A stretch of DNA of 64,000 bases. Origin: Ridgeia piscesae. Lineage: Eukaryota; Annelida; Polychaeta; Sabellida; Siboglinidae. Positions 12,951 to 64,000 of the stretch are shown here, in pieces. The notes beneath the pieces are model-generated. The model did not search any database. It had not been told where the DNA came from and saw only the letters and a program-made list of their open reading frames with translations. Each line of letters begins with the position of its first letter. Within the stretch, counting starts at the first letter, position 1. The translations under genes were made by a program, and so were the position numbers. The stretch covers positions 230,001-294,000 of the forward strand of contig JAODUO010000883.1 in assembly GCA_025642075.2 (NCBI GenBank). The letters are read 5' to 3'.

Positions 12951-15900
12951 GTAAGTGCATGCATGGGACAGACCACGCAGACCACGCAATTATGTCAGTA
13001 GATGTGTTGAATGTTCCTTTGTCAGTAATGTTTTAAATCCATTGTTGGTTATAATGTATTATGTCGGTTCTATGTAGGCCTTTGGAAGATGCTTGGTACT
13101 GATGGTGCGGATAAAAATATTTGTAAAAATCAAAATAGTTCAAAATCATTTATTAAAATAATTCCTGATGCTCAAACAAAACAATATTTGATTTATTTCA
13201 ATTTTGGATTAACCGATTTCTAATGTTACGTATATAGTGTTGTGCAGTATTGTAACAGTCAGAGTGAAGCCATACGATTAAAGGACAGTGTATGGTCTAT
13301 GATAGTTGGCCATTAATATGCCAATTATTTATCTTTAGAGCTAGATATATCATATATTAGATTATATGATTAGAATATTATCATTTAAGTACCTAGAAGT
13401 ATTCATGATCACATTAATTAGGCTTAATTAATTAATTAAAGTTGTTTTAGCATGTTAATGACTGGTATGTCTCGATGGTAGTTCATCATGGCATACATGA
13501 TTCAAGCTTCAAGCTCTAGCTATTAATTCAGACGAGAGTCGAGAGAGTTGAGAGTCGACACCATGCAAAGACTGGCTTATGACTGATTTATTTGACATAC
13601 ATTTGTTGTGTCCGAGTCCATGACGGTGATAACTACATGCCAGTCACGGTGGTAGTGGTGTGACTGTCACGGTTTCGCTGTAATTGTAAAGCTGTTATTG
13701 CTGTCTGCCCTTTGTAACAGAGCACAGTGACAAGTCTTATCAGTTGTCACGTACGGGTGCATAATATGTATCTGTGATCTGCAGCAGGATTGTGTTGTGG
13801 TAGTTTGTGTAGCCATGTCTCTCGTAAACAAACCAGTAATTGAAGTAAAGTACACCAGAACATCTAGGTGTCATGTTTAATGAGACTGCTGGCTAAGGTA
13901 TTTAAAGAACCTGTCACTTGGACAGGGTAAAACCCGATGTGGACGGGTAGAAATATTACTGGACGGGTGGTGGACGGGGAACAAATGAAGGAGCATAAAA
14001 GGTTTTCTAAAACCACAGATATGCCTTGGAAATGGGGTAAATGAGAGGTGATAAAACACGTCTCAACCGGCCTGTATGTGTACGAGTTACCATCTTCGTG
14101 TCCATCAACAACATTTGTGACTGGCAGAAGTTTTATCCCTGCGGATAAGGAAGTCATTAGAGTCCCACAAAGTGAGGCTGGATGTAAGAGATGCACCAGT
14201 TATGTTCCTACTGATGCTGCTGGTGTTTACCTGATTAGAGAGCAACGCAGCTTTATGTAGGACAACAGTTTGGCCAGCCATTTTTTGTGGATCCGTTGAT
14301 GTTAACTTATATTCATACACGCCAGTGTTTCATGACCTGAAATAAATATATGTTGTGACATCCATTTACACCCTTTTTCAGAGTGTAAGTAGCTATATCT
14401 ATGATTTCTGAAGACTCAGTGTTGAAGTCCATTGACATTTCTGTCCGTCCACATCGGGTTTTACCCATCCAAATGATGGGTGGACGGGTCTCTGCATAAA
14501 GCTAGGGTTGGCCATTATAAATGTTTCCTTTCATTGGGGTCTTCACTAAGAATGCTTTTTAAATAAAAAATATTCCATATACATTGTAGACATTTCACAG
14601 TCGTTCCATTTGCTGTTGTTGAGTAAATCAGATATCACTTTATCATGAGATATCACTTTGATCTGTACACACTGCTATCAACTTCATGAGTTTGTGTAAT
14701 CACAGAAGGTAGTTTACAGATACCATGGTAGTTGTAATCACCATTTCATTGACATTAGTTTATCTCGTGCGTTTCTGCTAACATTTGGTGACTTGACCAA
14801 GCAGCTACATACGCTAACTAATAAAATAAGCGTGATATATGGACTTTGTTTTGACTCTTGTGATAGCAGAATTGTAGTTGCTGCTTGATGCAGAGTTAGT
14901 TTTTCTTGGCTTCCTGTTTACTGTGGGGTGAGGGTGTTTCTGTGCCGTACACATGTACTCACACTCACTCACACAGTGCAGATGTTCTACAGGAGTATAA
15001 ACAACAAACAACACCCTGAGGTCTTGGCTGCAGTTGTTTCAGGCCCACAAACCTTCTGCTAGATTGTAGGTCTACTGATGTTATCATTTGTAAGATCAAT
15101 CTACAACAAGTTATCAACCCATTTGGTGTACAAAAACATACAAGATATTACTCATGACATGTTATGAAGGTATTTATACATGTTTAGCCTGCACAGAAAT
15201 AGACTACAATGCAGCTCTCTGTGAGCGATTAAGCACAACACAACCTGTGTATATGTGTGGTTAAAATTAGTGCATCGCCAGTCACGAATAAAACCAGAGT
15301 ATTAAATGCCTACTGGGCAAACTGTGTAGTTTTATTGTTTGCTGTCTTTGGTAAACAGTCTTCTTGTGTTACCAACTGTATGATATCTCATACAGCAGTC
15401 AGTTTGTCTGTGATCAGTGACCAGCCTGCAGCCCCAGGGCAACGTCAACTCTGGTCTCGTTTAAACATTTCCATATCATGCAACACATCATTACACATGT
15501 CAGGTGGTATATAGCATCAAGTGTGTGCTTGACAGCATTTTTACAGATGTAATTTTTCTAGGACATGCATGTCAGTTGGTGACAGGAGAAGTTAAGATGG
15601 AGGCTGTGTGGTAATAGTAACTGATGTATTTGATGTGGATGTATGTTAATTATTTACTCCATTTTTATTTCTGCTGTCACCAGTTGACATGCGTGTCCTA
15701 GAACTATGACAGTTGGTCTGTCATGTGCTGGTCCCACTCAACTCAACTGTGAGTCTCCAACAATACATCTGTACAAATGCTCTCATGAAAATACTTAATG
15801 CTAGATACTATCTACATCTATCTGACATAAATAGTTTGCTCCAGGTGCCTTACTTATTGTGTTTGCTCCAGGTGCCTTCCTTGTGCCTTACTTCATCATC

Positions 15901-18900
15901 CTCATAGTCGTGGGTTTCCCGATGCTGCTACTGGAGATGGGCATTGGTCAGTTTGCGTCCCTGGGCCCTGTCACAATCTGGCGCATCAGTCCACTCTTCA
16001 AAGGTGAGTCGTCCTGCCTCGATATCTTGTCACATGCTCTCCTGCAGGTGTGGTTGATTAAAAAAATATTTAGAGAAATTTACGCTTTTGATGCCAATCT
16101 TGTTGGATCATCTGTATTCCTGGATGATACACAACTAACCCAAACAGACACAAATTATGACTATAAACCACAGGTGTGTCATTTGCACAGGTGTGTTCAA
16201 ATAAGTGTGTCGAGGTGTGTTAAGACAAAGGGTGCTGATCAGCAGAAGTGGATGAGTGCATGTGTATCAGGAAAAATAATAATTAGTGCAGAAACCGAGG
16301 AGTTTGAAGTCTCGTTAGACTGCTCACATGTCTTATGTCATGGTTTACTGGAATTAGTTTGCCTGTCTCTATCTGGTTGTGGAAGATGTTGACTTTTTTG
16401 AATCAGCATTTCCCATGACTACTGATCTGTCCTCTGTCAGACTTGATGTTAAATTTCATGATTTTCAACAATACATTTTTTAAACTGATCTATGCACATC
16501 CATTCTCTAGATGTCAGTATGTGATGTGTTCTAACGAAATCGTATGTCAAAAATAAAAAATTAAGATAGTCACACCATTGGAAAGAAGATATATTCAGCT
16601 TTCCAATGGTGTAAAAATCATGGACCTAGCACACACGTAGCCAGAGTTATTTGACACTGAATGTGCCTGGGGTAGAAAAGTTCAAACTGAGAAAAACACA
16701 CCTGAAGTTCGTGGTCGCGTAAGCACATGATCGTGTACGTTCTGTTTCTCCATTTGATGCTTTTGAAATAAACTCCCGAGTCATGGTTGTTGTCAAAGAT
16801 TGATTACTGAAACTTAGAACATAATCCATGTATTTAGCAAGGTTTTGTAGCAGTGACCTGATCGATCACGCTTATTGACAGAACTTTAGTGAGTGCGCAC
16901 TCCGCCAGTGTGCACAACTTTAGTGAGTGCACACTCTGCCTGCGTGCACAACTTTAGTGAGTGCACCCTCCGCCTGCGTGCACAACTTTAGTGAGTGCAC
17001 ACTCCGCCTGCATGCACAACTTTAGTGAGTGCACACTCCGCCTGCGTGCACAACTTTAGTGAGTGCACACACCGCCTGCGTGCACAACTTTAGTGAGTGC
17101 ACACTCCGCCTGCGTGCACAACTTTAGTGAGTGCACACTCTGCCTGCGTGCACAACTTTAGTGAGTGCACACTCTGCCTGCGTGCACAACTTTAGTGAGT
17201 GCACACTCCGTCTGCATGCACAACTTTAGTGAGTGCACACTCCGCCTGCGTGCACAACTTTAGTGAGTGCACACACCGCCTGCGTGCACAACTTTAGTGA
17301 GTGCACACACCGCCTGCGTGCACAACTTTAGTGAGTGCACACTCCGCCTGCGTGCACAACTTTAGTGAGTGCACACTCCGCCTGCGTGCACAACTTTAGT
17401 GAGTGCACACTCCGCCTGCGTGCACAACTTTAGTGAGTGCACACACCGCCTGCGTGCACAACTTTAGTGAGTGCACACACCGCCTGCGTGCACAACTTTA
17501 GTGAGTGCACACTCCGCCTGCGTGCACAACTTTAGTGAGTGCACACTCCGCCTGCGTGCACAACTTTAGTGAGTGCACACTCCGCCTGCGTGCACAACTT
17601 TAGTGAGTGCACACTCCGCCTGCGTGCACAACTTTAGTGAGTGCACACTCCGCCTGCGTGCACAACTTTAGTGAGTGCACACTCCGCCTGCGTGCACAAC
17701 TTTAGTGAGTGCACACTCCGCCTGCGTGCACAACTTTAGTGAGTGCACACTCCGCCTGCGTGCACAACTTTAGTGAGTGCACACTCTGCCTGCGTGCACA
17801 ACTTTAGTGAGTGCACACACCGCCTGGGTGCACAACTTTAGTGAGTGCACACACCGCCTGCGTGCACAACTTTAGTGAGTGCACACACCGCCTGCGTGCA
17901 CAACTTTAGTGAGTGCACACACCGCCTGCGTGCACAACTTTAGTGAGTGCACACTCCGCCTGCGTGCACAACTTTAGTGAGTGCACACTCCGCCTGCATG
18001 CACAACTTTAGTGAGTGCACACTCCGCCTGCGTGCACAACTTTAGTGAGTGCACACTCCGCCTGCGTGCACAACTTTAGTGAGTGCACACACCGCCTGCG
18101 TGCACAACTTTAGTGAGTGCAAGCACACCTCCTGCGTGCACAACTTTAGTGAGTGCACATGCCGCCTGCGTGCACAACTTTAGTGAGTGCACACCCCGCC
18201 TGCGTGCACAACTTTAGTGAGTGCACATGCCGCCTGCGTGCACAACTTTAGTGAGTGCACACTCCGCCTGGTGCACAACTTTAGTGAGTGCACACTCCGC
18301 CTGCGTGCACAACTTTAGTGAGTGCATACTCCGCCTGCATGCACAACTTTAGTGAGTGCACACTCCGCCTGCGTGCACAACTTTAGTGAGTGCACACTCC
18401 GCCTGCGTGCACAACTTTAGTGAGTGCACACTCCGCCTGCATGCACAACTTTAAGCCAGTCAGGGTCCTTCTATCATCCACGCCTCCATATCGGATGATG
18501 TTTGCTTACATATAGGCCTGTCTGATAAATGCTGCTATTGGCTAAAATTTACATCAGTGGGAATTCCACTGTGAGAAAGAGGACATTCTGAACTTTCTCA
18601 TAGAACCAATTAAATATGTCTGCCAAGTGTCGAGGGAAACCCAGGAGAATGCGACTTGAAGAAGTGCGATTTATCGGTTTTGTTTTACAAAATTCATGCA
18701 TGAAATGATATGTAGCCTTTTGAAAAAGGTTATAAGATGTACTAAATAGTAATACAAATGAGAAATAAGCATTGCCAATTGGCAGAAAAGATATATATAA
18801 AATTTTATTTTGATGATAAAAACTCAAATTCATTGATCATTTTCGTGCAATGTTTGTATGATGGTTTCTCGACACCAAGTTCACTGACATACCATACATG

Positions 18901-21900
18901 CATAGATGCCAATCTTTACTGATCGACACCTGTAAGACTCTGGACAAAAATCCATAAGAAATCCATAAGCAAGGACGGGGAACCGATGATTTTAAATTCA
19001 CGGTTACATACAAAAAAATAATTTTAACAAGAACAATTTTATTACAACAGCACCCACAATATACAAACCACAATGTTCACTTAACTCCCACAATATACAA
19101 CACCATCACCCACAACGTTCACTTAACACCCACAATATACAACACCATCACCCACAACGTTCACTTAACACCCACAATATACAACACCATCACCCACAAC
19201 GTTCACTTAACACCCACAATATACAACACCATCACCCACAACGTTCACTTAACACCCACAATATACAACACCATCACCCACAACGTTCACTTAACACCCA
19301 CAATATACAACACCATCACCCACAACGTTCACTTAACACCCGCAATATACAACACCATCACCCACAACGTTCACTTAACACCCACAATATACAACACCAT
19401 CACCCACAACGTTCACTTAACACCCGCAATATACAACACCATCACCCACAACGTTCACTTAACACCCGCAATATACAACACCATCACCCACAACGTTCAC
19501 TTAACACCCACAATATACAACACCATCACCCACAGCTTTTTCGTTGGAGGCTCCATATCCATACATGTTAAGTTTTGGAAATGCCAATGTGGGAGATTTA
19601 TACGTAAATCGGAGGGTCTCGGAGGGAAAACGGTATTTTATACGTAAATCGGAGGCTCTTGGAAAATGGGGCTATTATATGTAAATTCTGTTTTTAACCA
19701 TAAATGCAAAGAATATAATACAAAAAGGAATACATTCCACTGATTAAGATATTGACATAGATATTGTTATATGAATTAACTTACTCTGGAGCAAAAACAT
19801 TCTTGGAGCCATGAACAATATTCAATATTAACATATATGTTTTATTATCACTATATAATACCACAAATATAATAAATTCCCTGGTAATCTCATATAAAAA
19901 ATGATGTGTTGCTGTTTGGCCCTCGTGAATTAAAAAGAAGGCTTAGCCTTGGTGATAGAACAATAAATATTATAATGTTCAGTAATTTACTTCTTGTGTT
20001 CTAGGTATAGGCCTCAGCTTCTGATATGTATCATAGGTTGCAAAGAATCCATTGCATGAAAAGCAGCAGCATCTACATGATATTTTGTTACACAATTAAC
20101 ATAATCTTTACATGTAAAACTTGAATATGGAATTCATTTTCATGAGCTGGACTGAGCCATGGTGACACAGGCCCGACTGGAGATATTTAAATAAGCATGT
20201 TTTCGTCTGTTAAGGATGTTTTCCATTTACATGTCAAATGTATTCAAATAATAAAGCGCTTAGCAAAGGTACATACATTTACAAACATGCACATGTAATG
20301 TAGATGTATGGATGGACATTATTTGTATAGATGTAAACGGATTGCAGTTTATTCTACAAGACTGGAATGTACACAGTGGGCGATAATATGGTATCAAAGC
20401 GGCTCGCGGCATTTCTATAAAGCTGATAACCAATGTCAGCGACAGACAAGGTGTAGGTCTTGTACTTAGGTATTTATTAGACTGTTTTTAATGTTCAGTT
20501 ATCACAGTAAGACGTGATTTAAATAATTCCAATTCAGGTCATTGTTCAAATCGTTGTCCGCGCCTGCGAGCGCCCCGCGGTGTCTGTGAGCATTAGCTCA
20601 GTCTCAGATTCGATTGCAATTAGTTAACTGGCATTGCTATTCATTGTGAGGCGACTCTGAAAAACACTTGAGACAATACCCAGCCAGAAATAAACCAATT
20701 ATCCGCACCCAGTAAGGTAAATTACGTACAATTTGTTTGTTTTGGGTGAACTGAAAACCGGAAAGAGCCGGATGCTCCTAGTCCTGCAATTGTTTTCACT
20801 TATGTTTCGATGAAATTGGCGGAGATTGTTTGTCCCGCGCGGGAGATCGGGAGATTTTCTGTAATTGCGGGAGACTTAACATGTATGCATATCGGTCAAC
20901 TTTCGCATGTGATGTGAAATTACAGGTGCTTTCCCGCGGGTAGTGTCCGGAAAAAATAGTGCACCCTGGGATAGATCACGTGCGACTTTCATTAGTGCAC
21001 ATGTATCCGCTAGGTGGCAGCTCTCATCCAAATGAATACAACAAAATGGCCGTTTTCCGATTCACGAAAAGATAACGAAAAGCATGAAGGATTGCTTATT
21101 TAGATGATAACGACTCATGCAAAATTATTATATTAAAAAATAAATTAAAACCTGACAATATGTATTACCCGTAAGGAATTAGTCCTACGCCCGTAAGACC
21201 GCCAAATGCCAAAAAATCCGTAAGTCTTACGGGTGATCCGTAAGAGTTGGCATCTATGCATACATGTCACTAGAGGACGTCACATATACTAATGTGTGTG
21301 ATCAGGGAATTACAGAACCGCTTCTGAGGGTAACTAATTACTCATCGTGGATGAAGGTGAACCAACTGGCATTTGGATGGGTACAATTCAATTGTGTGTG
21401 GTTGGATGGGTAAACATTAAATTGTGGAGCAAAAGATTTAATTATTTCAGTTTTGTTGTTAATTGTGAATGGGTGTCACTCTTGTGTTAAGCGTGGCTCT
21501 GGACATCATAATTATACACGTTTAGAATGGCATCTGTCTACGCGTGGTCAAATGCACACACCTACCAGGACATGTTTAGATTAGCATACACAGAGGAAAA
21601 GAAGAAACTGTTCTCATAAGCAACTGTCTGTTATTAACCCTTTCATTGTGAGGCCAATGTTGGAACAGGGAAATAGATGTTGTGTTTGCATGACACTGAC
21701 GGGAACAATGTAATCAGAGACAGCGTAGAGCGGCTGATTAATCCAACGCTAAAACATTGTCTGGCAATATCTTCCCGCGAACTGACAGTGCGCGTCTGAT
21801 TGATGCAACTGTATCTAGTAAATACTGGTTGCCATTTCTCTGACTATCTTCATGTTGGTGCAGTCACGGGGTTAATTATACAGTTTACACTGTAATTGGA

Positions 21901-24900
21901 ATTGAAAATCCAGTTGCAGAATTGGAATTTGTGCTGTGCATTCCAAGGTAATTGGAATTGGTGAAAATGTAATTGGAATTTGTTTCAGTTATTTTTTAAT
22001 TACACATACAATTTTGCTTCTAAAAATGGAATTTGTTAAAATGTACATGATAGTGTATGGTAATGTTAGAAATTACATAATTAATTATAGTAATGGTGCT
22101 ATAAAATAAGTAATTTTCTTATTTGAGTATGTTTATAGAGAGTTCATAATGTTATTTTTAAATGTAATTAATAATTGGAATTTAATTTTTTAAGGTGGAA
22201 TTAATAATTTGTAATTGGAGTTGATAATTGGGGTAATGTATCTGATCCCAAGTCTAAATGCGTGTCCAATCACATGGTGAGTGAGGCCCTGTCTGACATA
22301 AAACATCAATCCATGATACACTGTACGCTTTCATGAATTGTTGGGTTATATGTTCTTATTATCACCCTAACAGCCTTCACAAAGGTTCTGATTTCTTCTT
22401 TACTCAGTACTTGTTGTGCCAGTGTGACAAATGGCTGTACAGGTAACAAATATGTTCGTCACATGAATTTCTGGGAGAGGAAAGCTGGCATTTATAAATG
22501 TTAATGTTATTTCCTTCCAGATGTTGATTATGTCATTGGTGTCTGGTTGTTGCAGAAGCACGCCTGCCTTGTTCTTAATGCTTTATGTAATAAAGCTGTG
22601 AGTCTGTGTAATGTTCCTGTCTACTTCTCGCAGTTGACTGTAAAATCTCTGTCTAATCACGTGTGCGGAATTCATGGAGGTTCTATCTCCTTGTAGACTG
22701 CCTGGGTAGACACAGTCTACTATATTTCAAGTCAGTGATCAGGCTTGTTTTCAGTGACTTGCACTGATCAATCATCTGGCACAGCTAGCGGTTGGTGTTG
22801 TGAGCTACTTACTAGGCTCGCTTGCTCCAGGCAGGAGATGCTGTCCCCACTCGTCTTTGATCAAAATGTCAGCTGCTTGGTAAACGATTGTTTGTGGATT
22901 GTGTTGAAAACTCGGTGCTAAATATTGGGGTAACACTGAGAGAGTGCTGCTGGACAGGTCAAATGGAACCAACCCATCATTTCTCTAAATCAGGTTAGTG
23001 TATCTATTTATCGTGCCTATTTTTCTTTCAGATTTGAAGCTACGTAAGATTGGATTCATATACATAAATGTTATTGCAGTTAAATTATATATTTTCATGG
23101 TGATAGTCAGCTGTACTTTACAGAGTCGCCCAGTTAACTGAAGACGTGGACAGCCTGTTACGCCCTACACGTGCATTGTCTGCGTCTGTTGCAGGTATTG
23201 GCTATGCCATTGTCATGATATACCTGACGTGTCTGTCTGTTGCAGGTATTGGCTATGCCATTATCATGATACACCTGACATGTCGGTCTGTTGCAGGTAT
23301 TGGCTATGCCATTGTCATGATACACCTGACATGTCTGTCTGTTGCAGGTATTGGCCATGCCATTGTCATGATACACCTGACGTGTCTGTCTGTTTCATGT
23401 ATTGGCTATGCCATTGTTGTGATACACCTGACGTGTTGGTCTGTTGCAGGTATTGGCCATGCCATTGTCATGATACACCTGACATGTCTGTCTGTCTATT
23501 GGCTATGCCATTGTCGTGATACACCTGACGTGTCTGTCTGTTGCAGGTATTGGCTATGCCATTGTCGTGATACACCTGACGTGTCTGTCTGTTGCAGGTA
23601 TTGGCCATGCCATTGTCGTGATACACCTGACGTGTCTGTCTGTTTCATGTATTGGCTATGCCATTGTCGTGATAGACCTGACGTGTTGGTCTGTTGCAGG
23701 TATTGGCTATGCCATTGTCGTGATACACCTGACGTGTTGGTCTGTTGCAGGTATTGGCTATGCCATTGTCGTGATACACCTGACGTGTTGGTCTGTTGCA
23801 GGTATTGGCTATGCCATTGTCTGATACACCTGACATGTCTGTCTGTCGTCTATTGGCTATGCCATTGTCATGATACACCTGACATGTCGGTCTGTTGCAG
23901 GTATTGGCTATGCCATTGTCGTGATCCTGCTACTCATGAACACGTACTACAACGTGCTCATCGCGTACGCTCTCTTCTACATGTTTGCGTCCATCACCAA
24001 TGAGTTGCCGTGGGCGCGCTGCAACAACCTGTGGAACACAGAGAACTGCATCGAGTCGCGATATGGTGAGATTGCTATGTGTAGTTGGAAGTATCTTCAG
24101 AGAAAACTGTGTATCAATACAGACTGCCTCCTGCGTACATTCTGAGGGGTGCCGTGGCGCAGTGGGTAGGGCAGCGCATCTCAATTAAGAGGACCAGTGT
24201 TCAGACCCTTTCGGTATGATTTTGTGGCTTGGAAGTTGATTTACTCTGTATTACTGTAAACTGATTAGGGCTGTAACATTCTAATGGAGTCGTTTAATAT
24301 AGGAAGGAATGCAGTTTTTTTTTGGATTTGACAATTCAATGCTTTAATACACAATTACATTTTATATCTAGTTTTATATAATAGGGCGTGCAAGTCTCCC
24401 GCGTGAAAACGAGGCTGGGGGCAGTTGGGGGCAGGAGGTCCATATACTCCATGTTAACATATAGGACTTTGTTTTGTTTTTGGTTGTAATAATCGAAATA
24501 GCATATTTCAGTTATATTGTCCGAAGGATTATTACAAGCAGAAGCAGTGGAACACTTTGCCGGTGACACTGATCACAGAAATCATGAATTTTAATTGATT
24601 ATTATGGTGGTTGCCATGGCAATAGCGGCGAGTACTTGTGTTTAGCGATCTTGACTAATAATGAAGAGTTCCAGTTTTCGCGCAGTACAACCCGTTTGGG
24701 CCAAACCTATACATGTGTTATGATTATTTGCATTTAGACAACTTGTCAGATATAAGTGCTTATCAAAATTACAATGTACAGCAATGTAAAATGCAAATTC
24801 CATAAAAAAGACACATACGGTCTAACATCGTGTCTATTATCTGCACTACGTAAATCGCCATGTGTCTATGATAGTGGGATAAACTCAATATTAAATCGGA

Positions 24901-27900
24901 CATTTAAGATAAGAAACATATAACAAGATATTTGTGATCTGATTTTCCTAGTATTCATCAGTCGGAAGCTACAACTGTCATCCATCGTTAGAATATTATT
25001 CTTGTGTCTAGTCCCCAATTAGTCTCGCTTAGTCCCCAATAAGCAGGCCCTATTATTAGTAATTACTTAATTACTAGGTCAACATCAATGTTTGCAGTTG
25101 TAAGCATGGATCACAGAAAGTTTTTAACAACTACAGAAATGTGAGTCCATTTAAAAAACATTTCTTTGGTTAAACAAAACGTGGCATTCAAATCATAAAT
25201 GCTCACTTGGGGAGTCATGTGAAAACTGTTTAAATGCATCTGTTTTGTGTGTAGATGGACCGTCAAACAAAAGTGGAGCAATAGACGCAAGCAATAATTC
25301 AACAAACTTACGTTTTCTCCTGAAGACACCGACAGAAGAGTTCTTTGAGTAAGTACAGTAGTCATTCTCTTACTCTTTATTCACTCTTATTGGTTACCCA
25401 TAAATTACTTAATTTCTGTTTTCTAAGGTCATAGGGGTGATCAACGTGAATCTGTTGTTTCTGGCACTATGTCCTTGTGCCATATGTTTTGTAGAAATTA
25501 TATGCGGTAAATGCTGTCTAAACTTGTTTTGTGTTTGTGGTAATAATCTGCTACAAGTGTTATCTGGCGTTGAGCAAGTAGGCTGTCTCTAAACATGTTT
25601 TGGGTTTGTCACCTGCAATTGACTGATTAGGTTCTCTCTAACCATGTTTTGTGTATGTAGGAACCGCCTTCTACACATGTCGTCTGGCATTGACTGGGTA
25701 GACTCTGACCGTGTCTTGTGTCTGTAGGAACCACCTTCTACACATGTCGTCTGGCTTTGACCGGGTAGACTCTGTCTGACCGTGTCTTGTGTCTGTAGGA
25801 ACCACCTTCTACACATGTCGTCTGGCTTTGACCGGGTAGACTCTGTCTGACCGTGTCTTGTGTCTGTAGGAACCACTTTCTACACGTGTCGTCTGGCATT
25901 GACCGGGTAGACTCTGTCTGACCGTGTCTTGTGTCTGTAGGAACCACCTTCTACACGTGTCGTCTGGCATTGACCAGGTAGACTCTGTCTGATCGTGTCT
26001 TGTGTCTGTAGGAACCACTTTCTACACATGTCGTCTGGCATTGACCAGGTAGACTCTGTCTGATCGTGTCTTGTGTCTGTAGGAACCACCTTCTACACAT
26101 GTCGTCTGGCATTGACCAGGTAGACTCTGTCTGACCGTGTCTTGTGTCTGTAGGAACCACCTTCTACACATGTCGTCTGGCTTTGACCGGGTAGACTCTG
26201 TCTGACCGTGTCTTGTGTCTGTAGGAACCACCTTCTACACATGTCGTCTGGCTTTGACCGGGTAGACTCTGTCTGACCGTGTCTTGTGTCTGTAGGAACC
26301 ACCTTCTACACATGTCGTCTGGCTTTGACCGGGTAGACTCTGTCTGACCGTGTCTTGTGTCTGTAGGAACCACCTTCTACACATGTCGTCTGGCTTTTAC
26401 CGGGTAGACTCTGTCTGACCGTGTCTTGTGTCTGTAGGAACCACCTTCTACACATGTCGTCTGGCTTTGACCGGGTAGACTCTGTCTGACCGTGTCTTGT
26501 GTCTGTAGGAACCACCTTCTACACATGTCGTCTGGCTTTGACCGGGTAGACTCTGTCTGACCGTGTCTTGTGTCTGTAGGAACCACCTTCTACACATGTC
26601 GTCTGGCTTTGACCAGGTAGACTCTGTCTGACCGTGTCTTGTGTCTGTAGGAACCACCTTCTACACATGTCGTCTGGCTTTGACCGGGTAGACTCTGTCT
26701 GACCGTGTCTTGTGTCTGTAGGAACCACCTTCTACACATGTCGTCTGGCTTTGACCGGGTAGACTCTGTCTGACCGTGTCTTGTGTCTGTAGGAACCACC
26801 TTCTACACATGTCGTCTGGCTTTGACCAGGTAGACTCTGTCTGACCGTGTCTTGTGTCTGTAGGAACCACCTTCTACACATGTCGTCTGGCTTTGACCGG
26901 GTAGACTCTGTCTGACCGTGTCTTGTGTCTGTAGGAACCACCTTCTACACATGTCGTCTGGCATTGACCAGGTAGACTCTGTCTGACCGTGTCTTGTGTC
27001 TGTGGGAACCACCTTCTACACATGTCGTCTGGCATTGACCAGGTAGACTCTGTCTGACCGTGTCTTGTGTCTGTGGGAACCACCTTCTACACATGTCGTC
27101 TGGCATTGACCAGGTAGACTCTGTCTGACCGTGTCTTGTGTCTGTAGGAACCACCTTCTACACATGTCGTCTGGCATTGACCAGGTAGACTCTGTCTGAC
27201 CGTGTCTTGTGTCTGTAGGAACCACCTTCTACACATGTCGTCTGGCATTGACAAGGTAGACTCTGTCTGACCGTGTCTTGTGTCTGTGGGAACCACCTTC
27301 TACACATGTCGTCTGGCATTGACCGGGTAGACTCTGTCTGACCGTGTCTTGTGTCTGTAGGAACCACCTTCTACACATGTCGTCTGGCTTTGACCGGGTA
27401 GACTCTGTCTGACCGTGTCTTGTGTCTGTAGGAACCACCTTCTACACATGTCGTCTGGCATTGACCAGGTAGACTCTGTCTGACCGTGTCTTGTGTCTGT
27501 GGGAACCACCTTCTACACATGTCGTCTGGCATTGACCAGGTAGACTCTGTCTGACCGTGTCTTGTGTCTGTGGGAACCACCTTCTACACATGTCGTCTGG
27601 CATTGACCAGGTAGACTCTGTCTGACCGTGTCTTGTGTCTGTAGGAACCACCTTCTACACATGTCGTCTGGCATTGACCAGGTAGACTCTGTCTGACCGT
27701 GTCTTGTGTCTGTAGGAACCACCTTCTACACATGTCGTCTGGCATTGACAAGGTAGACTCTGTCTGACCGTGTCTTGTGTCTGTAGGAACCACCTTCTAC
27801 ACATGTCGTCTGCCATTGACCAGGTAGACTCTGTCTGACCGCGTCTTGTGTCTGTAGGAACCACCTTCTACACGTGTCGTCTGGCATTGACCAGGTAGAC

Positions 27901-30900
27901 TCTGTCTGACCGTGTCTTGTGTCTGTAGGAACCACCTTCTACACATGTCGTCTGGCATTGACCAGGTAGACTCTGTCTGACCGTGTCTTGTGTCTGTAGG
28001 AACCACCTTCTACACATGTCGTCTGGCATTGACCAGGTCGGCTCCCTCCAGTGGCCTCTCATTGTGTGCCTGGGCGTCTCCTGGTTCACATGTTTCATGT
28101 GTCTCTACAAGGGCATCAAGTCCATGGGAAAGGTCAGTCTCCCACAAGGAATGTCTTCCCAATGTTTGCAAGTCTCTGAATATTTCTTTGTTTTGTTTAA
28201 TTGTTTGTTCTGCTGCTTGTTGTAGGTCTATGAACCTCTTGCTTCATGTTAGGACGCTGGTGATTAGTTAACATATTTCATTTAAAATAAGTAAAATAAG
28301 AAAGTAAAATAAGTGAATAATTAAAATCAAAATTAACGAATTAAAACAAGTTCCATTTAAACTAAAGACATCAGTTGGAAAGTGCACACAATTATAAACA
28401 TCCTTCCTGAGAAATATTAAAAAGATTGCATTCCTCTTCACTATGAGCGTTCCCTACAGATTCTGGAATACTGCCTACAATATTGCACCCACATTGGACA
28501 TAGTTTACAAATTACTATAACCTTATTGATCAGTCCCACTGTCTTATGAAACTGTCCACTTGTGGAAATATATTCTGAACCGGTCTGTTGTGCATGAATC
28601 ATGTATAGTGTTACTGACGTATCGGTGAGATGGTTTATTATTAGGTGCGCGCTACAGAGAACTGTACATTATATGTAAATCTGACTCTGTTTACACAATT
28701 TATGTTATGTTATTTAACATGGTTCCAGGCTGTCATCTTCACTACAATTTTCTCGTACGCCATTTTGGCCGTTCTGCTCATCCGCGGCGTGACACTGAAG
28801 GGATCAGCTGAAGGGATCATCTATTATCTCAAGCCAGACTTCACGAAACTGGCGAACCTGCAGGTGTGTTCAGCACTGAGTCATTTGACTTCAGACCATG
28901 TTTGATTTTCATTTAACACTTCCTTTATTGCCTGTCAGGTTTTTCCACTAGGGTATTCACAGTTTGCAGACATTAATTAGCCTTTATTCACACATGTGCT
29001 GTATAAAATTTGTTTACTATAGACAGCAGTGGATATGTTGTTACCTAGCAACCATGATGACATATCAGTATTTAAGCTGGGTTTTTCGTGATTTTTACCT
29101 CCATTCTAACGTATTTGCAAATTTGGAAGATATTGCTACAGTGATCAGCAGAGGGCTACGCATGACATGCAGATACGTCAAAATACAACATATAGCATAA
29201 AATTGTTTAGACACAAGTCACACAATTAAGATATGTCGTTGTGGATGTTAGGCAGCAATTTGTGCAGTAATTTCATCATAATAATAATGGCATATGGCGC
29301 AGAAACATGGGCACTCACCACCCAAGCAAAGAACAAGTTACCCGCAGTACAAACAAAGATGGAAAGGAGTATGTTAAACATCACATACCGGAGCAGAAAA
29401 ACAAACACCCGGGTAACAAAAAGACAAAGGTCACAGACGTGATTGAACAAGTCAGAAGACAAAGTGGATCTGGGCAGGGCATGTCAGCAGGATACGAGAT
29501 AACCAATGGACACTGTGTATCACCACCTGGAAACCCTACGAAAGGAAAAGACCTAGAGGAAGACCGGCGAGAGGGTGAAGAGACGAACTAGACGACTACT
29601 GAATGGGTACCATCTGACAGAGGATAGCGCAAGTTAGGCAGATGTGGAAGCAGCATCCTGAGGCCTTCGTCAAACCACGTGACACTATGGCTGCACAATG
29701 ATGATGACGAATGAATAATGTAACTTTTTATAGCACTGGTATCCGCCACGTGGTGGCGCTAATGGCACTTGTAGATTATTTTGTTCATCAAACACATAAA
29801 ACATCATGCGAAAACAATAATATTAATGCTAATAAAACGACATTTGAAAAACATTAATATAATTACCATTTGCTATAGAATTAATAAAAACTGTGACATA
29901 ATTATCAAAGTAAAGTTTCTAAATATGTAAGTACAATAAAAAAACAGCTGCTTGTAGGAAAATAATTTAAACATTTGTTTCATAAAATGTAAACACTGAA
30001 CAGAACATGTCCAGGAAAAGTGGCTGAGAAGTTGATATTGTGTTTGAATGCACGCAATTGCCAGAAGTGTAAAGAGTGGTAGATGGCCCTGCAAGGCCAT
30101 AGCTTGCAGCTCACTGCTAACATACTTAACTTCACCTTTATAAGCACTTGCTGTGATGCTGTGTTTCTGTTTATCAAGTACAGGTTATTTAACATTGTAC
30201 TATGACTGTGTTAGATATTTATTGATGCATGAACTCAATCAAGTGTTAATTACTTAAAAATCCATTATCAGTTCGATTACTTTTGCTCCTCGCGTTTGAG
30301 ACTAATTTCACGAAAAAGCAAACCTACGAAGTCTCCCCTGTGACATGCTAATTCGTTTATGCATATATGTGCCTTCGTTTTTATGAAATAAACAGAAAAC
30401 TCAGAAAAAAATAAAAAGCTTCGGTAGCGAATTGTAGAACCACACATCTGAGTTGTTGTGACATCCGGAAAGGACTGTAGCTTGAAAATCTTGCGTGATC
30501 GATCATTGTGTGCCTGGTGTGATCTTGGATTCTGCCCAGTTTAAACAAATGGCTCCAGCTGTAGCCAACGTGATCGGTTTTCTTCTGCTACCCGGTGTAA
30601 CGCTGATTGGTTTTTTATACAATAAAAAATAATTAATAGTTCTTTTATTAAGCAAACTGCGCTTATTACTTGACCTATTTATATAGAACGCTACTGGACA
30701 TGAAAGAAAAGGATTGGCCATGGGCAAAACGAAATGATTGGGAAGCTTTAATTAAATTATAAACCGAATATGTTAAAACTTGACTTTTTATCATTGTTTT
30801 GTTTTGACTGTGCAACCATTAAGGTTGTGTATTATCACTGATCTAGTAATAAAAAAGTAAAAAACATTATTTAACCTTGATATTTGACCTTGTGTCGTCA

Positions 30901-33900
30901 GGTGTGGGGGGAGGCATCAGCCCAGGCCCTTGCCTCCCTGTCCCTGGGCGGTGGTGGATGGATCACCCTGTCTAGCTACAACAAATTCAAGAACAGGTGT
31001 GACAGGTACGTGGAGTGTAGCTTCGTTCTTGTAATAAACCAGCGTCACTTTTTACAACAGTTTTCTGATCACTGAGTAATGTTTTTAATAATTGATACTG
31101 CGGACCGTTTCACTAGCATAAAGAGCCCTCCCAAAAAAATTCATCATTACATAAAATATGTTGTTAAATTTGAGGGTTTTTCAAAACACAAATCCATTGC
31201 TATGTTACTGAGGACACTATTTCCATGACACACCAGTGACAATGTCCCGCTGGTGCGTCGTGGTGTTGACACTTGACAGTTTCCAGGTATTCATGATCAC
31301 TGTTAATGATCACAATTATTTTCAAGTGCAAAGTCAGGTTTAAGAGAAGTGATCCCCTGGTATATACATATGTATAAATTAAGATAAATGCCTGAATCAT
31401 AAAATTCAAATGTTGGTTGTAACTAATATTGATGGTCTACAGATATTTCATATTAAATGTTTGTTGAAAGTATGTTTTTTCGTAGTTTCTTAGTTGTTTA
31501 ACCTGTTCTTTTGGGTATGTATGAACTGGATTGAAACAATAAAAATAATTCTACTTTTAGTTTTTCTTCTCTGTCTCAAGTTGATAGGCTTGACCAGTGG
31601 TCAGTGTGAACATCAATTACCGTGTTGTAGGGATGCCTGGCTGGTTGGACTGGGCAATGCACTGACCAGTCTGTTTGCTGGATTTGTCATCTTCAGTGTG
31701 TTGGGTCACATGGCCTACAAGAAGGACGTCCCAGTGGATAAGGTGACAGCGAGTGGTGAGGTCTACTTGTCTTGTGGGGTCAGACCAGTATTTGCGATGT
31801 GTTCTAACGAAATGAGTCGTATGCCAGCGAACTTTGCTTCAAGTTTTTTCCCCCCGATGATTTTGACTGTCACCAAAAACTTTAATATCTTTTCTGTCAA
31901 GTGGCAATGCTTATTTTTCTTTTATATTAATATTTAGTACATTTTATCACCTTTTTAGAAAGATTTAAATTTCACACATGAATTGGTAAAATAGTACCAA
32001 TAAATCGGATTTGTTTGAGTCTTATTCTTTGGGGTTTCCGTAGACACATAGCGGACATATTTGGTACTACAAGAATGCTCAGAGCGCCCTTTTTCGGAAT
32101 GCTTATCAAGAGAGGCCTATCTGTAAAGAAACCTAGCCCATTGCGGGAACATGGTTGGTAGCGGGCCCTCCTGATTGGGTTAAATCTGTGCAGGCAGCCA
32201 CAGTGCACACTCACTAACTGTAAATAAGCCTGGTTGATTGGGTCGCTGCTGCAAAACCTTGCTAAATACGCGGATTATATGGCAATAATCTCAAGCAAAC
32301 AGCACGATATATCTTCGACAACAAACATGACTTGGGAGTTTAATTCGAAAGGTTCAAATGGAGTAATATAAGCAAAACGACTGATTTTGGAACAACAACG
32401 TACTCGATCATGTGCTTACGTGACTGCGAACTTCATGTGGTTTTTTTTCAGTTTGGACTTTTGTACCCCAGGCACGTTCAGTGTCAAATAACTTTGGCTA
32501 TGCGTGAGCTAGATCCCTGATTTTTACACTGTTGGAAAGCTTAATAATATATGATCTTTCCAATGGTGAAACTAACAAATTTTTTTTTGAACATACGACT
32601 CAATCACATCACAGAACACATCACATTTAGTTGATGTTGTGACAGTGAGTGGTGAAGGACATGCCTTGTGGGGTCAGATCACTATTTCATTTAATTAGTG
32701 ACAGTGAGCTGTGACGTCTAAGAAAAGGCCACCACTATCAAATGATTGCAATGCAAACACACCAGGCTGTATTCCATAAAATGCGTCTGTTTAAACATCA
32801 CATCCTGGTCCTTATCGTGGTGGTCATGTGACATGTCTGTTGCAGGCCCGGGTCTGGCGTTTGTGGCATACCCCGAGGGCCTGGCACTGATTCCCTTCGC
32901 CCCATTCTGGGCTGTCTGCTTCTTCTTCATGATGTTTACCGTTGGTCTCGACAGTCTGGTGAGTGCAGCCAGAACTACTGAATGGCAGATACTGCAGAAC
33001 GATATTTTTACATCTGGGAACCATTAATTAGACAGAGAAATTAAGTTGCAATGTTTATAGTTTGGTTAGATTGTTTTATATATTCTGATCGAGTTTTATG
33101 TGGTTTTGTTGAATGGATAGTCAGTATATACAAGGTTTAACAAGTTTAACAAGGTTGCCATGTAGAGCCAAGCCCCAGACGGCAGTGAACAAGGAAGCCT
33201 TCGGCTTATCGAGAATTCACTAAAATATAATAATTTCTTATAAAATTATACAGGAATTAATATTAAAATTAAACAAAATAAAAATGCCACTAAAACTGCT
33301 ACTAATTAAAATACATGGTCTCTATAAATACATCAGTAAAATAAAAATTACATAAAATGTCCCACAATAATAACAATTTGTTATAATAATAAATAAATAA
33401 AAAAATATATATGACTAGATAATTAATTTGGAAATAAAATAATTGGTAAAAATAATAAAATATTCATCCTAGGTATAACACGCCCTTGCCAGATAACTGT
33501 AAATTTTATTTTTAAACATTTACACTGCTTGCATTGACACAGTTTATTCCAGTTATTTATTATTCTCTGGGAGAATGAATACTTTCTTGTCTCTACTTAT
33601 AATACGGCTTTACTAATGCTGCCTTATGTCCTCTTGTCATATTATCTTCTTTTAGTTTTAAGGAACATTTTGCTATCTATAACCTCATACCCATTCAATA
33701 TCTTAAAAACTTCTATCAGGTCACCTCTTAATCTTCTTGTCTCTAATGTGATTAATCCACATTCTAACAGGCGTCTTTCATAAGAGAAATGTTTAAGTTC
33801 AGGAATAAGCATAGTTGCCCTGTAGTGAAGTACAACTATGTACCTTTGTTAAACTAGTCATTCTGTGTGCTTCATATCTCGTATATCAGACTTTCATGGG

Positions 33901-36900
33901 TTTATATCCCTTTAAAGAAAACCAGTGCAGTATCTCATCATCAGGACTGATCAAAGTGCTTTACACTTTACACCCTGGAAGATCTGTTCAATCAAACACC
34001 ATTAATTTTTGACTTGTCAGAGAAGCATTGAGCCACGCTGCAATTAATGCACAAAGGCTGCTTGCACAAATGTCCACCAATGTCTATAGCCAGGTGAGTA
34101 AACTGGAGCAGTGTAGAGTGAAACAGCTTGCGCAAGGTTCCACACTGCAGCACGTGATTCGAACCTGGGTCTCGTAGTTAAGAGTCTGAAACTCTACCCC
34201 TGAGCCACTGCATTCTATAAGATGCTGATGAGATAAACAGTGCTCCCCCTCACTGTGTGTTGTAGTTTGGTCAGGTGGAGAGTTGATGAGATAAACAGTG
34301 CTGCCCCTCACTGTGTGTTGTAGTTTGGTCAGGTGGAGAGTTGATGAGATAAACAGTGCTGCCCCTCACTGTGTGTTGTAGTTTGGTCAGGTGGAGAGTT
34401 GATGAGATAAACAGTGCCGCCCCTCACAGTGTGTTGTAGTTTGGTCAGGTGGAGAGTTGAAGAGATAAACAGTGCTGCCCCCCACTGTGTGTTGTAGTTT
34501 GGTCAGGTGGAGAGTTGATGAGATAAACAGTGCTGCCCTCACTGTGTGTTGTAGTTTGGTCAGGTGGAGAGTTGATGAGATAAACAGTGCTGCCCCTCAC
34601 TGTGTGTTGTAGTTTGGTCAGGTGGAGAGTTGATGAGATAAACAGTGCTGCCCCTCACTGTGTGTTGTAGTTTGGTCAGGTGGAGAGTTGATGAGATAAA
34701 CAGTGCTGCCCCTCACTGTGTGTTGTAGTTTGGTCAGGTGGAGAGTTGATGAGATAAACAGTGCTGCCCCTCACTGTGTGTTGTAGTTTGGTCAGGTGGA
34801 GAGTTGATGAGATAAACAGTGCTGCCCTCACTGTGTGTTGTAGTTTGGTCAGGTGGAGAGTTGATGAGATAAACAGTGCTGCCCCTCACTGTGTGTTGTA
34901 GTTTGGTCAGGTGGAGAGTTGATGAGATAAACAGTGCTGCCCTCACTGTGTGTTGTAGTTTGGTCAGGTGGAGAGTTGATGAGATAAACAGTGCTGCCCC
35001 TCACTGTGTGTTGTAGTTTGGTCAGGTGGAGAGTTGATGAGATAAACAGTGCTGCCCTCACTGTGTGTTGTAGTTTGGTCAGGTGGAGAGTTGATGAGAT
35101 AAACAGTGCTGCCCTCACTGTGTGTTGTAGTTTGGTCAGGTGGAGAGTTGATGAGATAAACAGTGCTGCCCTCACTGTGTGTTGTAGTTTGGTCAGGTGG
35201 AGAGTTGATGAGATAACAGTGCCGCCCCTCACTGTGTGTTGTAGTTTGGTCAGGTGGAGAGTTGATGAGATAAACAGTGCTGCCCCTCACTGTGTGTTGT
35301 AGTTTGGTCAGGTGGAGAGTTGATGAGATAAACAGTGCTGCCCCTCACTGTGTGTTGTAGTTTGGTCAGGTGGAGAGTTGATGAGATAAACAGTGCTGCC
35401 CCTCACTGTGTGTTGTAGTTTGGTCAGGTGGAGAGTTGATGAGATAAACAGTGCTGCCCCTCACTGTGTGTTGTAGTTTGGTCAGGTGGAGAGTTGATGA
35501 GATAAACAGTGCTGCCCCTCACTGTGTGTTGTAGTTTGGTCAGGTGGAGAGTTGATGAGATAAACAGTGCTGCCCCTCACTGTGTGTTGTAGTTTGGTCA
35601 GGTGGAGAGTTGATGAGATAAACAGTGCTGCCCCTCACTGTGTGTTGTAGTTTGGTCAGGTGGAGAGTTGATGAGATAAACAGTGCTGCCCTCACTGTGT
35701 GTTGTAGTTTGGTCAGGTGGAGAGTTGATGAGATAAACAGTGCTGCCCCTCACTGTGTGTTGTAGTTTGGTCAGGTGGAGAGTTGATGAGATAAACAGTG
35801 CTGCCCCTCACTGTGTGTTGTAGTTTGGTCAGGTGGAGAGTTGATGAGATAAACAGTGCTGCCCTCACTGTGTGTTGTAGTTTGGTCAGGTGGAGAGTTG
35901 ATGAGATAAACAGTGCTGCCCCTCACTGTGTGTTGTAGTTTGGTCAGGTGGAGAGTTGATGAGATAAACAGTGCTGCCCCTCACTGTGTGTTGTAGTTTG
36001 GTCAGGTGGAGAGTTGATGAGATAAACAGTGCTGCCCTCACTGTGTGTTGTAGTTTGGTCAGGTGGAGAGTTGATGAGATAAACAGTGCTGCCCTCACTG
36101 TGTGTTGTAGTTTGGTCAGGTGGAGAGTTGATGAGATCAACAGTGCTGCCCCTCACTGTGTGTTGTAGTTTGGTCAGGTGGAGAGTTGATGAGATCAACA
36201 GTGCTGCCCCTCACTGTGTGTTGTAGTTTGGTCAGGTGGAGAGTTGATGAGATCAACAGTGCTGCCCCTCACTGTGTGTTGTAGTTTGGTCAGGTGGAGA
36301 GTTGATGAGATAAACAGTGCTGCCCCTCACTGTGTGTTGTAGTTTGGTCAGGTGGAGAGTTGATGAGATAAACAGTGCTGCCCCTCACTGTGTGTTGTAG
36401 TTTGGTCAAGTGGAGAGTTGATGAGATAAACAGTGCTGCCCCTCACTGTGTGTTGTAGTTTGGTCAGGTGGAGAGTTGATGAGATAAACAGTGCTGCCCC
36501 TCACTGTGTGTTGTAGTTTGGTCAGGTGGAGAGTTGATGAGATAAACAGTGCTGCCCCTCACTGTGTGTTGTAGTTTGGTCAGGTGGAGAGTTGATGAGA
36601 TAAACAGTGCTGCCCCTCACTGTGTGTTGTAGTTTGGTCAGGTGGAGAGTTGATGAGATAAACAGTGCTGCCCCTCACTGTGTGTTGTAGTTTGGTCAGG
36701 TGGAGAGTTGATGAGATAAACAGTGCTGCCCCTCACTGTGTGTTGTAGTTTGGTCAGGTGGAGAGTTGATGAGATAAACAGTGCTGCCCCTCACTGTGTG
36801 TTGTAGTTTGGTCAGGTGGAGAGTTGAAGAGATAAACAGTGCTGCCCTCACTGTGTGTTGTAGTTTGGTCAGGTGGAGAGTTGATGAGATAAACAGTGCT

Positions 36901-39900
36901 GCCCCTCACTGTGTGTTGTAGTTTGGTCAGGTGGAGAGTTGATGAGATAAACAGTGCTGCCCTCACTGTGTGTTGTAGTTTGGTCAGGTGGAGAGTTGAT
37001 GAGATAAACAGTGCTGCCCCCCACTGTGTGTTGTAGTTTGGTCAGGTAGAGAGTTGATGAGATAAACAGTGCTGCCCTCACTGTGTGTTGTAGTTTGGTC
37101 AGGTGGAGAGTTGATGAGATAAACAGTGCTGCCCCCACTGTGTGTTGTAGTTTGGTCAGGTGGAGAGTTGATGAGATAAACAGTGCTGCCCTCACTGTGT
37201 GTTGTAGTTTGGTCAGGTGGAGAGTTGATGAGATAAACAGTGCTGCCCCTCACTGTGTGTTGTAGTTTGGTCAGGTAGAGAGTTGATGAGATAAACAGTG
37301 CTGCCCCTCACTGTGTGTTGTAGTTTGGTCAGGTGTAGAGTTGATGAGATAAACAGTGCTGCCCTCACTGTGTGTTGTAGTTTGGTCAGGTGGAGAGTTG
37401 ATGAGATAAACAGTGCTGCCCTCACTGTGTGTTGTAGTTTGGTCAGGTGGAGAGTTGATGAGATAAACAGTGCTGCCCCTCACTGTGTGTTGTAGTTTGG
37501 TCAGGTGGAGAGTTGATGAGATAAACAGTGCTGCCCCTCACTGTGTGTTGTAGTTTGGTCAGGTGGAGAGTTGATGAGATAAACAGTGCTCCCCCTCACT
37601 GTGTGTTGTAGTTTGGTCAGGTGGAGAGTTGATGAGATAAACAGTGCTGCCCCTCACTGTGTGTTGTAGTTTGGTCAGGTGGAGAGTTGATGAGATAAAC
37701 AGTGCTGCCCTCACTGTGTGTTGTAGTTTGGTCAGGTGGAGAGTTGATGAGATAAACAGTGCTGCCCTCACTGTGTGTTGTAGTTTGGTCAGGTGGAGAG
37801 TTGATGAGATAAACAGTGCTGCCCCTCACTGTGTGTTGTAGTTTGGTCAGGTGGAGAGTTGATGAGATAAACAGTGCTGCCCCTCACTGTGTGTTGTAGT
37901 TTGGTCAGGTGGAGAGTTGATGAGATAAACAGTGCTGCCCCTCACTGTGTGTTGTAGTTTGGTCAGGTGGAGAGTTGATGAGATAAACAGTGCTGCCCTC
38001 ACTGTGTGTTGTAGTTTGGTCAGGTGGAGAGTTGATGAGATAAACAGTGCTGCCCTCACTGTGTGTTGTAGTTTGGTCAGGTGGAGAGTTGATGAGATAA
38101 ACAGTGCTGCCCTCACTGTGTGTTGTAGTTTGGTCAGGTGGAGAGTTGATGAGATAAACAGTGCTGCCCCTCACTGTGTGTTGTAGTTTGGTCAGGTGGA
38201 GAGTTGATGAGATAAACAGTGCTGCCCTCACTGTGTGTTGTAGTTTGGTCAGGTGGAGAGTTGATGAGATAAACAGTGCTGCCCTCACTGTGTGTTGTAG
38301 TTTGGTCAGGTGGAGAGTTGATGAGATAAAAAAGTGCTGCCCTCACTGTGTGTTGTAGTTTTGTCAGGGGGTAGAGTTGATGAGATAAACAGTGCTGCCC
38401 CTCACTGTGTGTTGTAGTTTGGTCAGGTGGAGAGCATTGCGTCTGGCATCATAGACGAGTACCCTGACTACCTGCGACCCCGCCGTAAGATGTTCACCCT
38501 CTTCCTGTGCTCTGTCATGTTCTTCATGGGCATGCCGCTAGTCACTGAGGTAAGATGTTGTCTACGCTTTGACAAGAACCTGTCTTGATAAAGGTAACAG
38601 GGAGATCACACTTCATGACATGAACCCAGCTGTCGGCTCTGTCAACTTACAACCCTGCATTAGCTATGGTTTTAATGGGGAACCAGTAAAATAAATAAAG
38701 GCTAAGTTCTTACATGGACTGTGTTGGTAGCATTCACCCATGCTGCAATTAATGCATAAAGGCTATTCATACACAAATATCCCCACTGTCTGTAGCCAGG
38801 TACTCACTCATACAGCTGAGTGACCTGCAGCAATGTAGAGTGAACAAACTTGTGCAAAGTTTGACATGGCATACAGGACTTGGATCCAGGCTCTCTTAGC
38901 TGAGAGTCCAAAGTTCTAGCCACTGTGCCACTGATGCTGGTTTCACCATGCATGACCACGGTAGTATTTACTCATCAAACAATTAAGACATTTGACAGTT
39001 TTGGCTACCATTTTTACGTGCACAATCTACATGGAAGAAACCACCTTTCTGGTACATGCTTCCTAGATGAGTGGACAGAAATCCCTGACACAGACATGAT
39101 GTCAACCACATAGTTGACTCTCCTACCAGCAGAGCTCATGTCAAACCCCAACCTTTGTCCAAAATATTTGTGTGTAAGGAAAACAAATCAAACCAGTACT
39201 CTGCCACAATCACTGAGAATTCATTCATAGATTTTAAAGGTGGAATCTGTACTTTAAATGAGTTGACCCTTTTCTCTCAATGAAATAGTCCTGTATCATG
39301 TGCTGTTGTTGCAGGGAGGGATGTACATGGTGACTCTCATTGACTGGTACATCCTCCTCTTCTCCTTCACCATTGTCTGTCTTTCCGAGATCATCGCCAT
39401 CGTCTATGTCTACGGTGAGTAGCTGTAATGTACACTAGAGCTCCTAGAAGTTGTACACTAGAACTCCTAGAAGTTGTACACTAGAACTCCTAGAAGTTGT
39501 ACACTAGAACTCCTACAAGTTGTACACTAGAACTCCTAGAAGTTGTACACTAGAATCCCTGAAGTTGTACACTAGATCCCAGAAGTTGTACACTAGAGCT
39601 CCTAGAAGTTGTAAAAAACCCCAGAATTCCCCCCTAGAAGTTGTACACTAGAACTCCTAGAAGTCGTACACTAGAACTCCTAGAAGTTGTACACAAGAGC
39701 TCCTAGAAGTTGTACACTAGAGCTCCTAGAAGTTGTACAGTAGAACTCCTAGAAGTTGAACACTAGAGCTCCTTAGAAGTTGTACACTAGAACTCCTAGA
39801 AGTTGAACACTAGAGCTCCTAGAAGTTGTACACTAGAACTCCTAGAAGTTGAACACTAGAGCTCTTAGAAGTTTTACGCTAGAGCTCCTAGAAGATGACC

Positions 39901-44772: not shown

Positions 44773-44964
44773 GTGTAGTTTATTAACAAAGTTGTGTCAG
44801 TGACCAACCTCACTGGCAGTATAGAAAGATTGACTTGGCGTAAATGTTCTGAAAAAGACTAGTTCAATGAGACCTCGTAAGATCCACAAACCACAATATA
44901 TACCGGGTACATACTAATTGGTTAACAGAACCCGGCTAAAATGCTGGAAACAACTAGAACTCGA

Positions 44965-45898: not shown

Positions 45899-64000
<18,102 letters not shown>

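Follow-up and report, generated by a model that had tools for sequence, protein, structure and literature searches.

Tandem repeats whose unit includes a splice junction recur in two neighbouring genes of an annelid, exceeding chance expectation in post hoc tests, and probably originated at the DNA level, by tandem duplication followed by minisatellite expansion, which junctions would tolerate since the exon-proximal splice site stays usable. The window (the whole 64,000-nucleotide stretch that was analysed) contains two gene bodies, an SLC6-family transporter gene and a KIFAP3 gene, with a combined total of 22 introns and hence 44 junctions. At 12 of the 44 junctions (5/22 donors and 7/22 acceptors), the intron has further copies of the junction sequence on the same strand; these belong to 10 of the 22 introns, the two numbers differing because two introns have sets at both ends.

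Gene models and host

The two genes are as follows:

12782..42709, + strand: gene for an SLC6-family transporter of 713 aa, 14 coding exons, ORF intact, all introns GT-AG
45899..64000, - strand: gene for KIFAP3 (kinesin-associated protein 3), represented by its last 10 exons (505 aa) and continuing beyond the window

In searches of solved structures, with which protein searches agree, the best match of the SLC6 product is a proline transporter (E=1e-161), and the KIFAP3 product matches KIFAP3 chain 9w9h_C (E=2.4e-184). Both GT-AG models translate without interruption across every array, using the terminal splice sites. A possible upstream SLC6 exon at 440-496 reads MRGRKGFFSLFTSLPEHQE by hand, followed by GTAAGG, and could be spliced, with the frame kept, to an acceptor-like TTTCAG whose last base is 12790 (exon from 12791), replacing the ATG at 12782; the end that it would provide is not shared by the six relatives compared. 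The last SLC6 exon has an in-frame coding minisatellite (42506-42642, 30-bp unit, 4.6 copies). Frames at 29260-29690 and 33426-33848 look like non-LTR retroelement fragments, and a Pfam search of four retroelement-looking frames gave no match above the cut-off.

The host is an annelid, not a lancelet. In the KIFAP3 trees (43 and 24 of 120 listed proteins) the query groups with Capitella teleta and one further sequence (bootstrap 100, SH-aLRT 98 in the 24-protein tree), and Owenia, the other annelid of that tree, is placed elsewhere with nemerteans and Lingula. In the SLC6 tree (39 of 120 listed proteins, long two-domain SLC6 proteins being left out) the query groups with Capitella, Paralvinella and three further sequences (SH-aLRT 99), with Owenia next (100). 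A lancelet host was the first guess, junction-spanning repeats being known there, and was rejected: grouping KIFAP3 with Branchiostoma costs 54 log units (p-AU 6.7e-6). A molluscan placement of KIFAP3 is also disfavoured (p-AU 0.008).

Inventory of junction-spanning repeats

Arrays were taken from a merged TRF list of 34 entries with a period of at least 10, from which overlapping rows of one array and periods below 10 were omitted. TRF arrays of 6-73 copies overlap nine of the 12 amplified junctions; the other three cases (the exon 2 acceptor, the exon 8 donor and KIFAP3 donor 63910), which are weaker, were added by scanning all 44 junctions for nearby copies. The 12 cases are:

15830..15886, + strand: SLC6 exon 2 acceptor (junction 15872), one further copy, shift 27; weakest case
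23184..23925, + strand: SLC6 exon 3 acceptor array, 51-bp unit (26 intron + 25 exon), 15 copies, the last being the exon start at 23901
25633..28038, + strand: SLC6 exon 5 acceptor array, 71-bp unit (32 intron + 39 exon), 34 copies, exon start 28000
31743..32714, + strand: SLC6 exon 8 donor (junction 31755), 3 copies (31743, 32639, 32698), period 59
34226..38434, + strand: SLC6 exon 10 acceptor array, 58-bp unit (41 intron + 17 exon), 73 copies, all with AG, exon start 38418
40497..40689, + strand: SLC6 exon 12 donor array, 32-bp unit (23 exon + 9 intron), 7 copies, exon end 40519
53593..55527, - strand: KIFAP3 acceptor array (junction 53604), 75-bp unit (63 intron + 12 exon), 27 copies
55776..55946, - strand: KIFAP3 donor array (junction 55929), 29-bp unit (18 exon + 11 intron), 6 diverged copies
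57750..58456, - strand: KIFAP3 acceptor array (junction 57779), 51-bp unit (21 intron + 30 exon), 15 copies
59310..61917, - strand: KIFAP3 donor array (junction 61882), 66-bp unit (36 exon + 30 intron), 40 copies, all with GT
63349..63679, - strand: KIFAP3 acceptor array (junction 63356), 30-bp unit (22 intron + 8 exon), 11 copies
63843..63866, - strand: copy of KIFAP3 donor 63910, exact over 24/24 bp, shift 59

The six KIFAP3 coordinates and six SLC6 exon ends claimed in the first-pass annotation thus match the GT-AG models, nine of the 12 overlapping TRF arrays, and its estimate that roughly half of the 22 introns are affected is a fair one (10/22). The nine TRF arrays total 228 copies (15, 34, 73, 7, 27, 6, 15, 40 and 11). 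The arrays at 55776-55946 and 53593-55527 share one KIFAP3 intron.

The extra copy at the exon 2 acceptor, 27 bp upstream, has 22/30 ungapped identity, a score reached by 0.5-0.9% of control 30-mers, equivalent to 0.2-0.4 of 44 junctions by chance; the gapped scan is blind to this copy because it excludes the 40 bp adjoining the junction. The 24-bp copy at 63843-63866 is separated from its source donor (63910) by 35 bp of dissimilar sequence, and resembles the product of a templated (repair) insertion more closely than that of a complete tandem duplication.

Three further arrays lie close to a junction that their unit does not contain:

62279..63188, - strand: 36-bp unit, starting 6 bp from donor 63194
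39429..40131, + strand: 23-bp unit, starting 15 bp from the SLC6 exon 11 donor
46862..47038, - strand: 22-bp unit, ending 15 bp from KIFAP3 acceptor 46847

The possibility that these three arrays once contained their junction was considered and rejected, the similarity between unit and junction being not significant (P 0.89, 0.60 and 0.11).

Interrupted array at the exon 8 donor and an array within a dispersed element

The copies at the exon 8 donor have 19/30 identity ungapped and 42/51 in a gapped alignment across the junction, with 0/200 shuffles as good. Copies 2 and 3 are spaced 59 bp apart and copies 1 and 2 are spaced 896 bp apart, a surplus of 837 bp, inside which there is a dispersed element: 31876-32598 matches reversed 18806-16540 in pieces 73-75% identical, the two copies occupying different SLC6 introns. 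Short inverted ends (GATGTGTTCT / AGAACACATC) are readable by eye in the letters of the element, where the repeat tool, at its length limit, listed no inverted pair. The insertion apparently extends from about 31794 to 32628 (~837 bp), and the copies at the exon 8 donor formed a regular tandem array until the element inserted.

The other copy of the element holds an array of its own (16882-18453, 34-bp unit, 46 copies), and the matches that flank this array overlap on 37 bases of the element, approximately one unit. Thus, arrays have been born from other DNA too, beyond junctions.

Unit structure and decoy splice sites

In each of the nine TRF arrays, the unit includes the exon-intron boundary and the genuine boundary is a terminal copy. 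The offset of the unit from the junction is arbitrary (8-39 bases of exon and 9-63 of intron). Each of the six acceptor units includes 21 nt or more from the end of the intron, and each of the three donor units includes 9 nt or more from the start of the intron; therefore, the terminal copy has a full site. The first-pass annotation had described the arrays as always growing into the intron, which holds by definition and carries no information, because the copy joined to the exon is necessarily terminal and the others are intronic by definition. All nine unit consensuses consist of unspliced intron plus exon; the exon-exon (spliced) sequence expected of splicing-linked or RNA-templated copying is absent. 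The copies of an array differ from each other by substitutions and small indels.

AG or GT is kept in 215 of the 224 site-covering copies of the nine arrays, genuine ones counted. Among full decoys, AG is lost in 4/13 of the exon 3 array and replaced by GG in 5/33 of the exon 5 array, and the splice dinucleotide is lost in 1/5 of the array at donor 55929; no loss was found among full decoys of the other six arrays. The variability of the decoy dinucleotides over the nine arrays (0.045, compared with 0.054 for other neighbouring column pairs) is matched or undercut by 37% of random draws, so they are neither better nor worse kept than other positions, which is the outcome expected of homogenisation in the absence of selection. 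Two arrays depart from this: the splice dinucleotides vary more than 90% of pairs in the exon 3 array and more than 92% in the exon 5 array, and this loss of AG hints that some decoys are selected against; if some decoys are harmful, duplication may be not fully neutral.

The exon 5 units also have a donor-like CAG/GTAGAC ~37 bp past the acceptor, where the real exon reads CAG GTCGGC and lacks a donor-like end. With an acceptor and a donor-like end in each 71-bp consensus unit, 25633-28038 is a row of potential micro-exons. Arrays of this kind bear on how the spliceosome chooses one site among dozens of near-identical copies, and they are relevant to errors of exon annotation in genomes that have them and to the gain of introns by tandem duplication.

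Excess of arrays at junctions

The placement of arrays was compared with random seeding, for which each array (at least 3 copies, period at least 15, within the two gene spans, one exonic array excluded) was collapsed to one unit and seeds were drawn at random in the two genes, not wholly exonic, spanning being counted as at least 5 bases on each side of a junction. Nine of the 19 gene-internal arrays span a junction, versus 1.12 expected from uniform seeding (P=2.9e-7) and 1.75-2.5 from G+C-matched seeding (P 1.3e-5 to 2.3e-4), which bears out the earlier statement that random placement rarely hits junctions. All of these P values, and those that follow, are post hoc, from one window and two adjacent genes picked as striking.

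Part of the excess is compositional, since junctions (G+C 0.50 in 61-bp windows) and non-spanning intronic arrays (mean G+C 0.46, n=10; 0.49 with five arrays outside the genes) are both G+C-rich relative to the intron background of 0.37. One G+C weighting was based on 10 intronic rows and five of the eight rows outside the genes (45346, with 2.6 copies, was in; 1825, 11923 and 43549, with at most 2.5 copies, were out); weighting with three consistent row sets gave 1.75-2.39 expected (P 1.3e-5 to 1.7e-4). After G+C matching, a 3.6-5-fold junction excess is left. Variants of the test (copy-number cut-offs, overlap rule, the putative upstream SLC6 exon) gave P 3.4e-8 to 5e-6 with uniform seeding and P 1.3e-5 to 4.2e-4 with the G+C window. 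Each gene has an excess (SLC6 4/7 and KIFAP3 5/12 arrays spanning), that of KIFAP3 alone being weak after G+C matching (5/12 versus 1.9 expected, P=0.024). With arrays at most 15 bp from a junction included, a limit set post hoc, the count is 12/19 versus 2.95 expected with the G+C window (P=2.3e-6).

Origin of the arrays

According to the explanation favoured here, stretches of ~27-75 bp would be tandemly duplicated irrespective of reading frame or of any fixed offset from the junction, and would then expand and homogenise like other minisatellites; we infer such an expansion process behind the arrays. A duplication that covers a junction would be nearly neutral: the copy adjoining the body of the exon still has a complete site and presumably remains in use by exon definition, and the extra copies would be intronic decoys. 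Duplications within exons would be mostly purged unless in frame, so that the survivors derived from exons would mainly be junction arrays. The annelid genome would have a high birth rate of arrays, with somewhat G+C-rich seeds favoured. Tolerated duplication explains the arbitrary phase and offset of the units, the complete terminal sites, the array in the transposon-like element, and the maintenance of decoys at the level of other positions. Seeds other than splice sites are supported by the 46-copy array of 34-bp units in the dispersed element and by the in-frame 30-bp array at 42506-42642. G+C matching and the exon filter are insufficient to account for all of the data: tolerance leaves the 3.6-5-fold excess unexplained, and the three arrays at most 15 bp from junctions are not explained by tolerance of duplicated splice sites.

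These residues would be accommodated if junctions actively promoted duplication, with co-transcriptional structures or nicks (R-loops, U1/U2-bound nascent RNA, or paired single-strand breaks that are filled and joined) duplicating 30-75 bp. The excess that persists after G+C matching (P 1e-5 to 2e-4), the amplification of donors (5/22) as well as acceptors (7/22), the three additional arrays that start 6-15 bp from a junction, and the exact 24-bp copy 35 bp from its source, which may represent templated repair, all point in this direction; the excess itself is a post hoc observation on n=19 arrays. The first-pass annotation had proposed copying linked to splicing, R-loops, or slippage at pyrimidine tracts, none of which is supported by the tests made. 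The sense-strand G/C skews of the nine units (+0.12, -0.06, +0.36, -0.26, -0.19, -0.38, +0.28, -0.03 and +0.54) range from -0.38 to +0.54 and have no common sign, whereas a G-rich sense strand is expected of R-loop-driven duplication. The 12 amplified junctions do not differ clearly from the 32 others in G+C content (p 0.77), skew (p 0.68) or short-period simplicity (p 0.32), and the smallest p is that of 3-mer complexity, slightly lower at amplified junctions (0.64 versus 0.69, p=0.066). The idea that amplified junctions are simpler or G+C-richer was not supported when they were split by class either, the lowest p values being those of donors (0.11 and 0.12).

Nor are the arrays located away from junctions evidently seeded on cryptic splice sites: in 14 non-junction units there is no overall motif enrichment, with a mean shuffle P of 0.53 on the sense strand for 5' splice-site motifs (four units having 0.06-0.12) and a mean P of 0.70 for 3' splice-site motifs. 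This result and the arbitrary unit offset both weigh against a copier linked to junctions. Overall, there is no clear sign of a splicing-linked copier in these small tests, which may miss a modest effect, and a search of the open-licence literature for a duplication mechanism based on nicks or R-loops produced no match. Promotion of duplication by junctions is considered rather unlikely. Its more general form, that splice junctions are hotspots of short tandem duplication in two or more distantly related animal groups, cephalochordates and annelids among them, through co-transcriptional DNA damage and repair acting on ~30-75 bp, is an unlikely conjecture; if true, junction duplication would be a standing source of spare splice sites and new introns.

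Random placement of minisatellites with a chance cluster in this window, or errors of assembly, would fit with the choice of the window as unusual and with homopolymer-type indels resembling read errors (about 39606-39636), but is improbable given the departure from uniform seeding (P=2.9e-7), the excess in each gene, the substitutions and small indels that distinguish the copies, and the gene models that are intact across every array. Retention of copies by selection, as spare sites that buffer mutation or tune splicing, is very improbable: AG or GT is indeed kept in 215/224 copies, with no full-decoy loss in six of nine arrays, but the dinucleotides are no more constant than other pairs (37% of draws equally low or lower), and those of the exon 3 and exon 5 arrays exceed 90% and 92% of pairs in variability.

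Comparison with known systems

The first-pass annotation knew of no named system with these properties, but the same structures are named in the lancelet literature (PMC3087553, PMC3902484). Tandem repeats across exon-intron boundaries of lancelet globin genes were termed "mirages", with earlier work on Adh3 cited (PMC3087553), and PGBD5 was later added to the genes concerned, with TnC cited (PMC3902484). According to the available text of the former, Adh3 data and globin RT-PCR suggest that genes with mirages are spliced regularly, and mirages were proposed as a route to new introns (PMC3087553). As in the annelid, the lancelet cases described in the two papers (Adh3, the globins BflGb6 and BflGb9, TnC and PGBD5) have tandem boundary-spanning units at both 5' and 3' boundaries; their units are 10-160 bp long, and AG/GT signals are present in many, not all, repeats. 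It is fairly probable that the annelid arrays are minisatellites of the mirage type. They are larger, reaching 73 copies and 4.2 kb versus 3 units in one described BflGb6 haplotype and 6 in the other, and their density is 12/44 junctions of two adjacent genes. The remaining difference is one of host range, not of structure: the host here is an annelid, represented by DNA of one haplotype, and every mirage case named in the available text is from a cephalochordate.

Other systems are similar in part. In the cases of intron gain by tandem duplication that the available text of PMC4974935 covers (vertebrate ATP2A1, potato RdRp, fission yeast), DNA with splice signals is tandemly duplicated, as here; in the annelid, by contrast, existing junctions are copied into an existing intron. 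Human exon-intron boundary repeats in segmental duplications (PMC2812944) are variable internal minisatellites with ~30-bp units, some located at boundaries; as described in the available text, they modify gene structure, some with novel introns, whereas in the annelid genes the exon structure is intact. The minisatellites in intron 1 of earthworm metallothionein (PMC12783039) are annelid intronic arrays, as here, in whose available description units that contain a junction do not appear. The available text on cone-snail introns (PMC3862624) is not relevant to junction repeats. Among the matches listed in the open-licence literature, there was no annelid junction-spanning minisatellite, and for other junction-spanning repeats nothing useful by title.

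Junction-spanning minisatellites are thus known mainly from lancelets, and the annelid provides a second lineage in which attraction of duplication to junctions can be tested. Their presence at 12/44 junctions of two unrelated annelid genes suggests that they arise more widely, wherever the minisatellite birth rate of a genome is high.
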